A DNA stretch of 64,000 nucleotides from Nitrosopumilus zosterae (GCF_025998175.1 NZ_AP026695.1:1366760-1430759); one strand, 5' to 3'; positions 7,320-10,193 are shown, numbered from the stretch's first letter. Notes: generated by a model not told the origin, from the letters alone. Numbers and translations are program-made.

Positions 7320-7616
7320 TTAGCCAAATAGTGAGGATAATCCTTCCATGGCTGCTTCTTCGGTTTTACCTTCATCTTTAGGTGCTTCTTCTTTCTTTGC
7401 TTCACCGGCTGCCTCTGCTGGGGCGGCTGCTGCAACTGCTACAGGTGCGGCTTTGACTGCCTCATCGATGTTAACATCGGCTAGGGCTGCTACTAGTGCT
7501 TTAACTTGAGCATCATTTACCTCTGCTCCAGATGCTTTAACAACTGATGTGAGGTTTGCTTCGTTAACTTCTTTGTCTAGTTTGTGAAGAAGTAAAGCAG
7601 CGTAAACATATTCCAT
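7320..7616 (-). CDS. rpl12: Large-subunit ribosomal stalk protein L12 (P1-like)
   Basis: A 98-residue archaeal P1-type stalk protein. The N-terminal dimerisation helices ([20 protein letters not shown]) are followed by an alanine-rich hinge (about 58-75), a charged segment and the terminal MEGLSSLFG that recruits translation GTPases. It is apart from rpl10 (2228-3094) and in the opposite orientation, unlike the usual archaeal operon. Its TATA-like box at 7641-7650 sits about 28 bases before the ATG, so it is probably leaderless. A transposable element begins only 14 bases beyond that box. Confidence 0.95.
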
Positions 7617-7640
7617 TATATCGAGATTTTCTTAGTGCAT

Positions 7641-7650
7641 AATATAAAAC
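7641..7650 (-). promoter_or_regulatory. TATA-like box of rpl12
   Basis: On the minus strand this reads GTTTTATATT, centred about 29 bases from the rpl12 ATG, the distance expected for archaeal leaderless transcripts. The target duplication of the mobile element starts 6 bases further upstream, so the element has come close to the BRE position without removing the TATA box. Confidence 0.6.
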
Positions 7651-7655
7651 TATGG

Positions 7656-7663
7656 AGATCTCA
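7656..7663. repeat. 8-bp target-site duplication, left copy
   Basis: AGATCTCA directly abuts the left inverted repeat. The identical 8 bases abut the right inverted repeat at 10118-10125. Eight bases is the duplication size known for IS6-family transposition. Confidence 0.9.
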
Positions 7664-7712
7664 GGTTCTGTTTCGTTGTCGGTTTCCGAAAGGGGTGTTA
7701 CCTAACGGTTGC
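7664..7712 (+). repeat. Left terminal inverted repeat
   Basis: Begins GGTTCTGTTTCGTTGTCGGT. Compared with the inward-read right end, 19 of the first 21 bases match, and the blocks GTGTTAC and CGGTTGC recur at equivalent positions further in with a one-base shift. Confidence 0.88.
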
Positions 7713-7760
7713 TAAATTTTCTACTAATTCCTTTTTGAGAATTGGTGGGGGTGTATTTGT

Positions 7761-7880
7761 TTGATAGAAAATATATTAACATTCGTTCTAGTTTGTGGAT
7801 TAAGTTTTGGCTGTTTCCTATATGGTAGACAATATGAATCTGAAAAACTAAGGTCGTCTATAATAACCAGCAATCATTGA
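7761..7880 (+). CDS. Possible 39-residue single-span membrane protein in the element
   Basis: A TTG-started frame of 39 residues with a hydrophobic stretch (NILTFVLVCGLSFGCFLYG) followed by a charged tail. It lies just inside the left inverted repeat and overlaps the end of the opposite-strand 82-residue gene by 33 bases. No family is recognised, and the call rests only on its composition and position. Confidence 0.3.
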   Translation: MIENILTFVLVCGLSFGCFLYGRQYESEKLRSSIITSNH

Positions 7881-8096
7881 ACCTATCCCAATTATAGATA
7901 AAGCCAAACCAAAATCCCAAACAGGATTTTTTTGTTGGGTTGATTCTTCATCAATAATTGATGTATCAGTATTATTTTTATTGTTAATTTCCGTTTCAGT
8001 AACCATGTTAGGAGAGATAATGATTAACCCGACACCTATAGCAGTTAATAAGATTCCAAAAGGAAATAATTTCTTTTTACCTTTATTATTAGTCAT
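7848..8096 (-). CDS. Hypothetical two-span membrane protein, 82 residues (element passenger)
   Basis: An 82-residue protein with two hydrophobic segments, about residues 12-30 (FPFGILLTAIGVGLIIISP) and 62-78, separated by a polar Asn/Thr/Glu loop. It ends in basic residues. It lies in the same direction as and 91 bases downstream of the transposase, inside the element. Function unknown; it could be carried cargo. Confidence 0.6.
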   Translation of the reverse strand: MTNNKGKKKLFPFGILLTAIGVGLIIISPNMVTETEINNKNNTDTSIIDEESTQQKNPVWDFGLALSIIGIGSMIAGYYRRP

Positions 8097-8187
8097 GACT
8101 GATCTAATATTCCGTAATAACTGATATAATAGAATTTATTACAAAAATAACCATATCAAAATTCTAATAAACAAGTGGTTTTTTGAT

Positions 8188-9312
8188 TCATTTTTTACTT
8201 GCATTTTGAATTAGTGTTTTCCATTTGTCATTTCCCTTAACTTCAATACCACACATTTCTGATGGTGTTTTACCCTCAAGACTCATGTGAGGTCTTACGT
8301 AATTATGGTATAGTTGGTAACCGTCAATTAATGGAGAATCCATTTTCTTCAAACCTCTGGTTACTTTTTCCCTATCTCTAAATTCACCATTCAGTCTCTC
8401 CATAGTGTTATTGTTTTTATCTCCTGTAATGTGGATATGACGAATGTGGGTTGTTCTTTGACTTCTCTCCCTTGCCCAAAATTCCCTCTTGTATGCTTCT
8501 GAATATGAAGCCAGACCGTCAGTGATGAAGACTTTGGGAGTAATTTTGGTAACCTGTTTTGCCTGTTGTAACAAACCTCTTGCATTATGACCTTGTTTTC
8601 TATGTGAGACTTCTTGTGCAATCCAGAATTTAGTTTGGTCATCCATTAGTGAAAATACATATTTCAACTCTCCACGAATTTTCACATAGACTTCATCAGC
8701 ACGCCATGTATCCCCTACACTTGGAGTGATTTTATCCAAGTATGATTTCATTAGTTTGGTGTATTTTACAACCCAACCATAGATAGTCTTATGAGATACA
8801 TTTACTCCTTGAAGTTTTAGGAATTTCTGAACGTTTCTTAATGATTCGCCTGTGAAATAGAGTTGTAATGATTGGGTTATGATTTCAGGGCTCGATTTCA
8901 TCTTCTCAAAGCCTAAGTTAATTGAGAATGTCTTTTTACAATCCTTGCAGGCAAATCTCTGAATATCGCCAGACTTGTTGTGTCTGATTCCTGATTTCTT
9001 TAGGTTGTCACTATTGCAGAACTGACAGATTTGAATGTTGATTGGTTCTATGGTTACTTTGTTTTGTTCTCTTACCTGTTCTCGTAGTTTGATTGAGATT
9101 TCAACAGAGTGAATATGTTTACAGCAAAGTTTTCTAAAAATGTGATCAGGGCAGTTACAAACAAAGCCTGAATTTGTCTTGGTTACCGTATAGTTTACGT
9201 GTCTTGTTTGGGAACGAACAGAATAGGTTGATTCATCAATTCTTCTGATTTGATTTCCTTGTTCAGCAATCACTTTGCCCTTTTCTTGTCTTGGATTTGT
9301 TTGTGTTGTCAT
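8188..9312 (-). CDS. IS6-like DDE transposase with N-terminal SWIM and zinc-ribbon domains
   Basis: A 374-residue protein. A SWIM-type zinc finger lies near residues 52-66 (C52-x-C54 ... C64-x-H66). A zinc ribbon follows near 96-125 (CQFC ... CKDC), then a helix-turn-helix region (about 140-180). The catalytic DDE domain has WRADE (D206), FITD (D265) and NTMERLNGE (E305), with a basic residue about seven positions after the glutamate. The architecture matches archaeal IS6/IS240-type transposases, and the GGTTCTG ends with 8-bp duplication agree. It is intact and probably functional. Its ATG lies at the first of four operator-like repeats, so expression may be self-limited. Confidence 0.9.
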   Translation of the reverse strand: MTTQTNPRQEKGKVIAEQGNQIRRIDESTYSVRSQTRHVNYTVTKTNSGFVCNCPDHIFRKLCCKHIHSVEISIKLREQVREQNKVTIEPINIQICQFCNSDNLKKSGIRHNKSGDIQRFACKDCKKTFSINLGFEKMKSSPEIITQSLQLYFTGESLRNVQKFLKLQGVNVSHKTIYGWVVKYTKLMKSYLDKITPSVGDTWRADEVYVKIRGELKYVFSLMDDQTKFWIAQEVSHRKQGHNARGLLQQAKQVTKITPKVFITDGLASYSEAYKREFWARERSQRTTHIRHIHITGDKNNNTMERLNGEFRDREKVTRGLKKMDSPLIDGYQLYHNYVRPHMSLEGKTPSEMCGIEVKGNDKWKTLIQNASKK

Positions 9313-9387
9313 ATCTACGTATATAGTATATCTACGTAGATATATTAACTTTACTTAACTACGTAGATATGTTTAAATACGTAGATA
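9313..9387. promoter_or_regulatory. Divergent promoter with four TACGTAGATA-type operator repeats
   Basis: Between the transposase and the AbrB-like gene there are four copies of a CTACGTAG-centred motif, with centres at about 9318, 9335, 9362 and 9380 (spacings 17, 27 and 18). The second, 9327-9344, is a perfect 18-bp palindrome, TATATCTACGTAGATATA. A TATA-like TTTAAATA at 9372-9379 would serve the plus-strand operon. A TATA-like stretch near 9340-9346 would serve the transposase on the minus strand. The repeats overlap both promoters, the expected place for a repressor shared by the two directions. Confidence 0.75.
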
Positions 9388-9401
9388 GGTTATTTTGAGT
9401 A

Positions 9402-9605
9402 TTGCCCAAATGGAAAGAAGATGCTAAAGAGTTTACAGTTAGTGTGAATTATAATGAAAACAGAGGTTATCAAAGTTCAATACCAAAACCGATAATGGAT
9501 TTACTTGGTGATCCTGAAAAGGTTACTTTTGTTATTGATGGAAAAATAATCAAAATAAAATCAAGTGATGAACTTAGTTTTAAGGAGAAGAAAAGATTAC
9601 GATGA
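9402..9605 (+). CDS. AbrB/SpoVT-like DNA-binding protein (element passenger)
   Basis: A 67-residue protein. Residues 10-55 match a swapped-hairpin AbrB domain: TVSVNYNENRGYQSSIPKPI, then LLGDPEKVTFVIDGKIIKIK. AbrB-type proteins act as dimeric regulators or as antitoxins. The start is TTG 9402, about 27 bases after a TATA-like box, so the message is probably leaderless. It is the best candidate to bind the palindromic repeats just upstream. Its stop overlaps the next gene by 4 bases. Confidence 0.75.
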   Translation: MPKWKEDAKEFTVSVNYNENRGYQSSIPKPIMDLLGDPEKVTFVIDGKIIKIKSSDELSFKEKKRLR

Positions 9606-9880
9606 CAGAATTTTCTTGTAAACAGTGTAATCATCCTTTTGAAGTATTTCCACCAGATAAAACATTCACTAAAGCAGAAAGTAATGAATGTGTTGTAAAT
9701 GGTAGTGGTTTAATGAAATGCGATATGATTAGAGAGTATAGATGTGAGAATTGTTATGTGGTAAATCATGTATATTGGCATCATAATGAGGGACATGATA
9801 AAAAAATACTGAAAAAGGCTATTGAATTACTTGGTGATAATTTTTCCAGAAGTAATGCGTATAAGGTAGAATATGACTAA
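9602..9880 (+). CDS. Zinc-ribbon-like protein, 92 residues (element passenger)
   Basis: A 92-residue soluble protein with CKQC at residues 6-9, single cysteines near 30 and 40, CENC near 48-51, and a histidine cluster VYWHHNEGH near 57-65. The metal-ligand-rich pattern suggests one or two zinc sites. Its ATG overlaps the AbrB-like stop (ATGA) and its own end overlaps the next gene by 8 bases, so all three are probably translated in series. No known family recognised; a toxin or nucleic-acid-binding role is conceivable but unsupported. Confidence 0.65.
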   Translation: MTEFSCKQCNHPFEVFPPDKTFTKAESNECVVNGSGLMKCDMIREYRCENCYVVNHVYWHHNEGHDKKILKKAIELLGDNFSRSNAYKVEYD

Positions 9881-10193
9881 GTTAGTTTTCTGTATGGATT
9901 GTGGTGAATGTCTTGGTGAAGATAGACCCAATCATGCTAAACATCATTTGAAAAAACATCCTAACCATAGAAAATATCTAACTATACCAATCATTGATCC
10001 ATTACTTTTACCAAATCCCGATGAATGGTTTAGAAAACATGAAAATAGATTAAGTCAAAGATTCTATGGGCAACCGAAAAGTAACACGGAGAAAACAACC
10101 GATGACGAAACAGAACCAGATCTCACGCCTGAAAATCAAAAATTCAGTTTAAAATCTTCAGACTTCGGCAAACGGCATAGAGGGTTCGTTTGA
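9873..10193 (+). CDS. C2H2-like protein running out of the element, 106 residues (element passenger, chimeric end)
   Basis: The N-terminal 35 residues hold CMDCGECLG and HAKHHLKKHPNH, a C2-H-rich zinc-finger-like pattern. A proline-rich and then acidic segment follows. The right inverted repeat encodes residues about 66-82, and codon 82 straddles the element border. Residues 83-106 and the stop are supplied by flanking chromosomal DNA, antisense to the neighbouring 169-residue gene. The tail is therefore an insertion-site accident, and the ancestral protein may have had a different end at each site. Confidence 0.6.
   Translation: MTKLVFCMDCGECLGEDRPNHAKHHLKKHPNHRKYLTIPIIDPLLLPNPDEWFRKHENRLSQRFYGQPKSNTEKTTDDETEPDLTPENQKFSLKSSDFGKRHRGFV
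10070..10117 (-). repeat. Right terminal inverted repeat
   Basis: Read inward on the minus strand it begins GGTTCTGTTTCGTCATCGGT and continues with GTGTTAC and CGGTTGC blocks that align with the left end. It also encodes the C-terminal part of the last passenger gene. Confidence 0.88.
10118..10125. repeat. 8-bp target-site duplication, right copy
   Basis: AGATCTCA, identical to 7656-7663. Removing the element plus one copy joins 7663 to 10126 and leaves about 65 bases between the stop of the 169-residue gene and the rpl12 ATG, a natural intergenic length. Confidence 0.9.

Follow-up and report, generated by a model that had tools for sequence, protein, structure and literature searches.

An IS6-like group of cargo-bearing transposons in ammonia-oxidizing archaea with insertions just upstream of host TATA boxes

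Upstream of the gene for a ribosomal protein, the genome of Nitrosopumilus zosterae carries a stretch of 2.45 kb whose two edges mirror each other. Is it one mobile unit with several genes on board, what kind of transposase would move it, and what sets the place where it lies? The DNA analysed here, hereafter the window, is 64,000 nucleotides long, and the stretch in question occupies positions 7664–10117. We hold with high confidence, in the absence of transposition, binding or expression data, that it is a complete cargo transposon from a distinct, widespread IS6-like group whose landing in ammonia-oxidizing archaea is set by promoters.

A precisely bounded mobile element

The two ends are inverted repeats (GGTTCTGTTTCGTTGTCGGTT and GGTTCTGTTTCGTCATCGGTT) identical at 19 of 21 bases, followed inwards by two pairs of matched blocks, GTGTTAC (7695–7701) facing GTAACAC (10081–10087) and CGGTTGC (7706–7712) facing GCAACCG (10070–10076). 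Outside the ends lie two exact copies of the 8-mer AGATCTCA (Table 1). In the relative G056 the corresponding site reads ACTATGG-AGATCTCA-CGCC without a break, and the 8-mer is present once; the window flanks, joined with one 8-mer, align with G056 over 2354 bp across the junction at 94.5%, and the empty allele lacks the whole 2454 bp and one 8-mer. Because the site in G056 is uninterrupted and holds a single AGATCTCA, insertion and duplication are demonstrated rather than inferred, and 7664–10117 is confirmed as a real, precisely bounded mobile element. The original prediction had described the inverted ends, inner blocks and flanking repeats, all confirmed by reading the sequence, and had allowed that the repeats might be chance. 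That is ruled out by the single copy in the aligned G056 and by the re-pairing control given below, and the proposed check of close relatives found the insertion spot empty in G056 and in 13 others.

The same allele disposes of a simpler account, in which a plain IS6-family element has landed beside unrelated host genes and there is no cargo unit. A typical IS6 element does measure ~0.8 kb and carries a transposase only (PMC7986276), but here all the genes are bracketed by the ends and the duplication, and what is missing from the empty site is everything between them. We regard this account as refuted and give it practically no credence.

Table 1 Features of the element and its insertion site, in window coordinates
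Feature	Position	Strand	Remarks
Host rpl12 (60S acidic ribosomal protein family)	7320..7616	-	PF00428 3.8e-11; downstream of the targeted promoter
rpl12 TATA box (host promoter; minus-strand sequence TTTTATATTA)	7640..7649	-	Conserved in the empty-site alignment; inferred targeting landmark
Left target duplication, AGATCTCA	7656..7663	.	rpl12 TATA box 6 bp away; single copy in the G056 empty site
Left end: terminal inverted repeat, inner blocks GTGTTAC and CGGTTGC	7664..7712	+	Read from sequence
Cargo ORF, 82 aa, probable small membrane protein	7848..8096	-	DUF6249 weak (Pfam 2.3e-4, below cut-off)
Transposase, 374 aa	8188..9312	-	SWIM, zinc ribbon and DDE domain; DDE_Tnp_IS240 3e-18
Divergent promoter/operator region with TACGTA palindromes	9313..9401	.	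Four palindromes between both starts and their edges
Small AbrB/MazE-like DNA-binding protein, 67 aa, probable element regulator	9402..9605	+	Divergent from transposase
Cargo ORF, 92 aa, zinc-ribbon-like	9602..9880	+	Zn_ribbon_8 7.9e-4, below cut-off
Cargo ORF, 106 aa, CxxC/HxxxH zinc-finger-like	9873..10193	+	Weak zf-C2H2 match; exits the right end
Right end: terminal inverted repeat, inner blocks GCAACCG and GTAACAC	10070..10117	-	Read from sequence
Right target duplication, AGATCTCA	10118..10125	.	Read from sequence

The transposase and the 67-aa gene diverge from an 89-bp interval in which TACGTA palindromes abound, and four of the five TACGTA motifs in the entire window fall within 9300–9400. 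The 67-aa protein belongs to a cluster of its own, present in 9 elements, and has no significant Pfam match itself; among 44 proteins encoded at the same position, 11 match MazE (best 5e-9). Its structure model has the order beta-alpha-beta-beta at moderate confidence only (pLDDT 67), and a Foldseek search with this model returned nothing significant, AbrB being the best fold match. A profile comparison of its family with the mixed set of same-position proteins gave 99.5%, with the window family itself included in that set. The AbrB label given in the original prediction is supported by the related regulators and operators and not by the protein's own Pfam and structure searches; an AbrB fold of the window's copy is not demonstrated. 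The protein is probably a repressor of both divergent genes acting through the palindromic operators, which is inferred and likewise not demonstrated. The predicted cargo operon stands in that several genes, in two directions, lie within the ends, and falls short at its last gene, whose ORF stops outside the element, in host DNA. Terminal cargo ORFs of several relatives also run past the element end; such run-through is frequent and gives them host-encoded C-termini. Start codons and promoters are predicted throughout and have not been mapped.

A transposase group related to IS6 and its family of elements

The transposase combines SWIM residues (C52, C54, C64 and H66), a zinc ribbon (C96, C99, C122 and C125) and a catalytic core (D206, D265 and E305, and also R312). 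For each of the SWIM, zinc-ribbon and D206/D265/E305 residues, conservation among 68 relatives is 99% or higher, which bears out the added domains claimed for this protein. Pfam DDE_Tnp_IS240 scores 66.6 against a cut-off of 27, and the NCBIfam IS6 model NF033587 scores barely above its own (126.8 bits against 125). A fold search with the structure model (pLDDT 85) leads to the ISCth4 transposase and retroviral integrases; a profile search against the sequences of solved structures gave no match.

Two further defining features of IS6 are present: a terminal GG with an internal cTGTt (GGTTCTGTTTCG at both ends, likewise in relatives) and the 8-bp target duplication, seen in the empty allele and in 70 exact duplications among relatives. 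Two are not. Instead of DD(34)E with an E-DH---K or archaeal E--F---K-R signature, the window transposase has DD(39)E spacing, with 39 residues separating D265 and E305, and a signature E--N---R-R, in which E305 is followed by N308, R312 and R314 (32 aligned transposases); and instead of a compact ~0.7–0.9 kb with a lone transposase gene, the element spans 2454 bp and its relatives 1.9–6.5 kb, with cargo. Since spacing and signature differ from both groups of Harmer and Hall, the group appears, on the features tested, to be IS6-like in chemistry and ends without being a full IS6 member. The original description as IS6-like is thus retained for the ends, the duplication and the DDE domain, and not for clear IS6 membership. 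Membership in IS1595/IS1 was rejected: the IS1/IS1595 zinc domain scores 26.5 against a cut-off of 28, Pfam Zn_ribbon_IS1595 13.1 against 25.4 and the IS1 family model 57 against 100.

Within the genus, 31 of 95 genomes contain relatives of the transposase; for the order the figure is 146 of 400, spread over 37 of 66 genera, and Methanoperedens has them too. An end-finder run around the fetched copies delimits at least 76 elements, 70 of which have an exact 8-bp duplication together with inverted ends, against 0.5% when the halves are randomly re-paired. These 76 were preselected by the finder; measured fairly, against every copy examined, well over half pass. Nearly all the elements have genes besides the transposase. 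In 63 of the 76, a divergent ORF lies no more than 450 bp ahead of the transposase gene's start, and in 55 it encodes fewer than 100 aa, most of these small proteins resembling DNA-binding types (MazE/AbrB, ribbon-helix-helix and zinc ribbon). Where the regulator is like that of the window, TACGTA palindromes recur (L053, L154 and L165); diverged regulators are accompanied by other palindromes; L159, for example, has three copies of CCGTACGG, and L058 has ACGTACGT. Because the operator palindromes change along with the regulator, the natural inference is that the element regulators may autoregulate. Cargo other than the regulator is mostly private to one element. Among the 74 longest cargo proteins, seven match an N6_N4 DNA methylase, and further matches include other methylases, HNH and GmrSD nucleases, proteasome-like proteins, Fic and others. 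The search of ends and transposase in other genomes has therefore turned up a family of the same layout, and this family, the mobile unit, its duplication and empty site, and the conserved residues together uphold the claim of a distinct cargo-bearing archaeal transposon type.

Transposase relatives were also seen on contigs of viral class in IMG/VR (L235–L249), a possible route between hosts. Many C-terminal transposase fragments of 25–70 aa occur in L004 and in other genomes, suggesting that older insertions decay often.

Insertion just upstream of host TATA boxes

The same nucleotide of the rpl12 promoter is occupied in G000, G094 and G069, by a decayed remnant in G057 and, in another genus, in G292. 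The intact duplications, AGATCTCA, CGAACTCA and AGAAGTTA, differ by species, are identical within each pair and equal the host's own 8-mer. At radA, intact elements lie directly upstream of ...CTTATAAAGTACT... in eight genomes (G000, G016, G033, G037, G054, G058, G094 and G190), with additional ends or decayed remnants in G009, G056, G070 and G092, and many relatives keep ...GATCATTTTCTAAAACAATACTCTTATAAAG... unbroken as conserved empty sites. Shared positions of this kind could reflect single ancestral insertions, inherited and decayed lineage by lineage, and the right ends in G000 and G094, the same over ~47 of 48 bp, would suit such a history. It is nevertheless very unlikely, and for rpl12 we reject it: the duplications vary between species while agreeing within pairs, the radA elements have diverged transposases, and G056 shares the AGATCTCA allele of the window genome yet is empty. 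The hits at both promoters are best read as independent; at rpl12 each intact duplication copies its own host's 8-mer and the allele-sharing G056 has no insertion.

Elements also accumulate at these sites. Upstream of radA in G094 (L036, 4143–13440), three abutting elements with diverged transposases have one TGTTTCGA in common, and in G037 two elements have a common TGTTTTAG; overall, 22 of 150 flanks start with the end of another element. Several of the arrays are known from metagenome-assembled genomes, though G000 and G094 each consist of one contig. A fourth element end directly follows the three-element array of G094. Upstream of rpl12 in the same genome (L075), a 412-bp remnant sits at the same nucleotide, with the left end of one element type and a right end nearly identical to that of the window, which suggests a deletion across a former tandem pair.

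What these sites have in common is their spacing to the host TATA box. In 108 non-redundant host flanks, taken from both sides, a strict TATA hexamer starts at +6, +7 and +8, counted outwards from the duplication, in 10, 9 and 12 cases, respectively, against 0.73 per offset elsewhere in the flanks. The total of 31, from 25 different flanks, compares with 2.2 expected (~14-fold); the associated Poisson value of 5e-25 is overstated because one flank may give overlapping hexamers. When flanks are chosen blind to TATA, by a gene start 34–55 bp off, TATA stands at the offset in 17 of 37, whereas ahead of 337 other ORFs the equivalent positions have it in 3.5%. These promoter statistics are drawn from the fetched loci. 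Not every site fits: of the 65 distinct ones only 24 have a strict hexamer at the exact offset, many others having looser TATA-like variants, and a minority of insertions are inside or adjacent to coding sequence (L061, L152 and L156 among them). The distance from duplication to gene start is usually 35–49 bp, and target genes include radA, rpl12, EF-1alpha, TATA-binding protein, topoisomerase I, SufB and a carboxyltransferase. The elements, then, insert at a fixed position just upstream of host TATA boxes; what guides them there is inferred. This link to TATA, which the original prediction had not noticed, is the element's most unusual property. No fixed target sequence could be assigned within the 8-mer, which differs among species without a strong consensus, nor does the transposase keep a fixed orientation relative to the target gene (20 against 17). 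In one locus (L204, 3003–3563), an element lies upstream of the host's own gene for TATA-binding protein.

Could the pattern arise without targeting, from random insertions of which only those sparing promoters survive? Compact genomes should tolerate insertions upstream of the core promoter, and purifying selection could sharpen the resulting distribution, though not to a window of ~3 bp. If survival alone mattered, any upstream position would be tolerable, yet the TATA offset holds within that window, and the identical nucleotide is struck in independent species. We consider this explanation very unlikely.

More weight attaches to the possibility that recognition of AT-rich, TATA-like DNA is a property of the transposase, with no transcription factor involved, insertions inside genes being lost by selection. 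The landmark is after all a sequence motif, with an A+T peak that is sharp at +7 to +11 from the duplication, and 6 of the 25 flanks with a strict TATA hit have no outward ORF start at 30–75 bp. However, TATA-like hexamers are everywhere in these AT-rich genomes, yet the conserved housekeeping promoters of radA and rpl12 are struck repeatedly at the same base, and at several hit sites the TATA box is merely degenerate. Direct DNA recognition remains possible and is the main rival, though we rate it less likely than not.

Proposed mechanism and comparison with known systems

In archaeal promoters, the BRE is where TFB sits beside TBP. As judged from the sequence and the empty allele, the DDE transposase acts on GGTTCTGTT-type ends and inserts with an 8-bp duplication. 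Strand transfer falls on 8 bp that end ~5–7 bp ahead of the TATA box, immediately beyond the BRE, a position that leaves the core promoter intact and, by inference, makes the insertion nearly harmless. Because each insertion would recreate the promoter-side target, elements could stack while sharing a single duplication, a mechanism that is also inferred. The small protein divergent from the transposase is presumed to repress both genes through its palindromic operators, and the other genes are carried along, differing between elements. The likeliest guide would be promoter-bound TBP/TFB touched by the transpososome, a choice we favour slightly because, at this spacing, the joining reaction takes place right next to the BRE, on its outer side; the alternative is intrinsic recognition of TATA DNA. 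The wider proposal, that cargo transposons land through the TBP/TFB complex in the manner of Ty3 and that promoters of core genes serve as docking sites for cargo arrays, restriction-modification genes included, could equally well prove right or wrong.

Promoter-guided integration could be tested directly with few parts, given how simple the archaeal TBP and TFB are and how well they are established in vitro. The elements could also flag promoters in use in genomes of organisms that resist culture, and would give methylase, nuclease and regulator genes a route of spread among ammonia-oxidizing archaea. Their landing habit is a form of safe landing, better known from yeast retrotransposons. We found no TATA-targeted prokaryotic or archaeal transposon and no SWIM-type IS6 in the open-access literature searched; judged from that literature, this would be the first prokaryotic transposon at a fixed distance from a TATA box.

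With IS6/IS26 (PMC7986276, PMC6807381) the group has in common the DDE_Tnp_IS240 domain, GG..CTGTT ends, the 8-bp duplication and a tendency to form arrays; it differs in its size, several passengers, the added SWIM domain, the TATA-linked precision of its target and the catalytic spacing and signature described above. The IS6 review lists one member with a passenger gene, ISDsp3 (PMC7986276), and Harmer and Hall doubt that the archaeal elements belong to IS6/IS26 (PMC6807381). An N-terminal zinc-finger extension of the transposase is likewise seen in the long IS6-like elements of Clostridial type (Varani's clade h; clades VII/VIII in Harmer and Hall), but these are bacterial and 1.2–1.8 kb in length, with no SWIM domain or cargo reported. 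The thaumarchaeal elements surveyed by Krupovic et al. in 2019 come from the same archaea, and casposons among them may sit in tandem at one site; IS-like transposons there typically had one or two genes, and composite passenger-carrying transposons went undetected in archaea (PMC6563490), so the present group would add such a class.

The closest parallel is yeast Ty3, and with it Ty1. These elements, too, land within a narrow stretch ahead of genes, which is called harmless targeted integration (PMC8632968, PMC5911963). They are eukaryotic retroelements at RNA polymerase III promoters, whereas the elements here are archaeal DNA transposons at promoters of protein genes. Contact with a transcription factor is only inferred for the present elements, and Ty3 serves as a working analogy for landing guided by promoters (PMC8632968).
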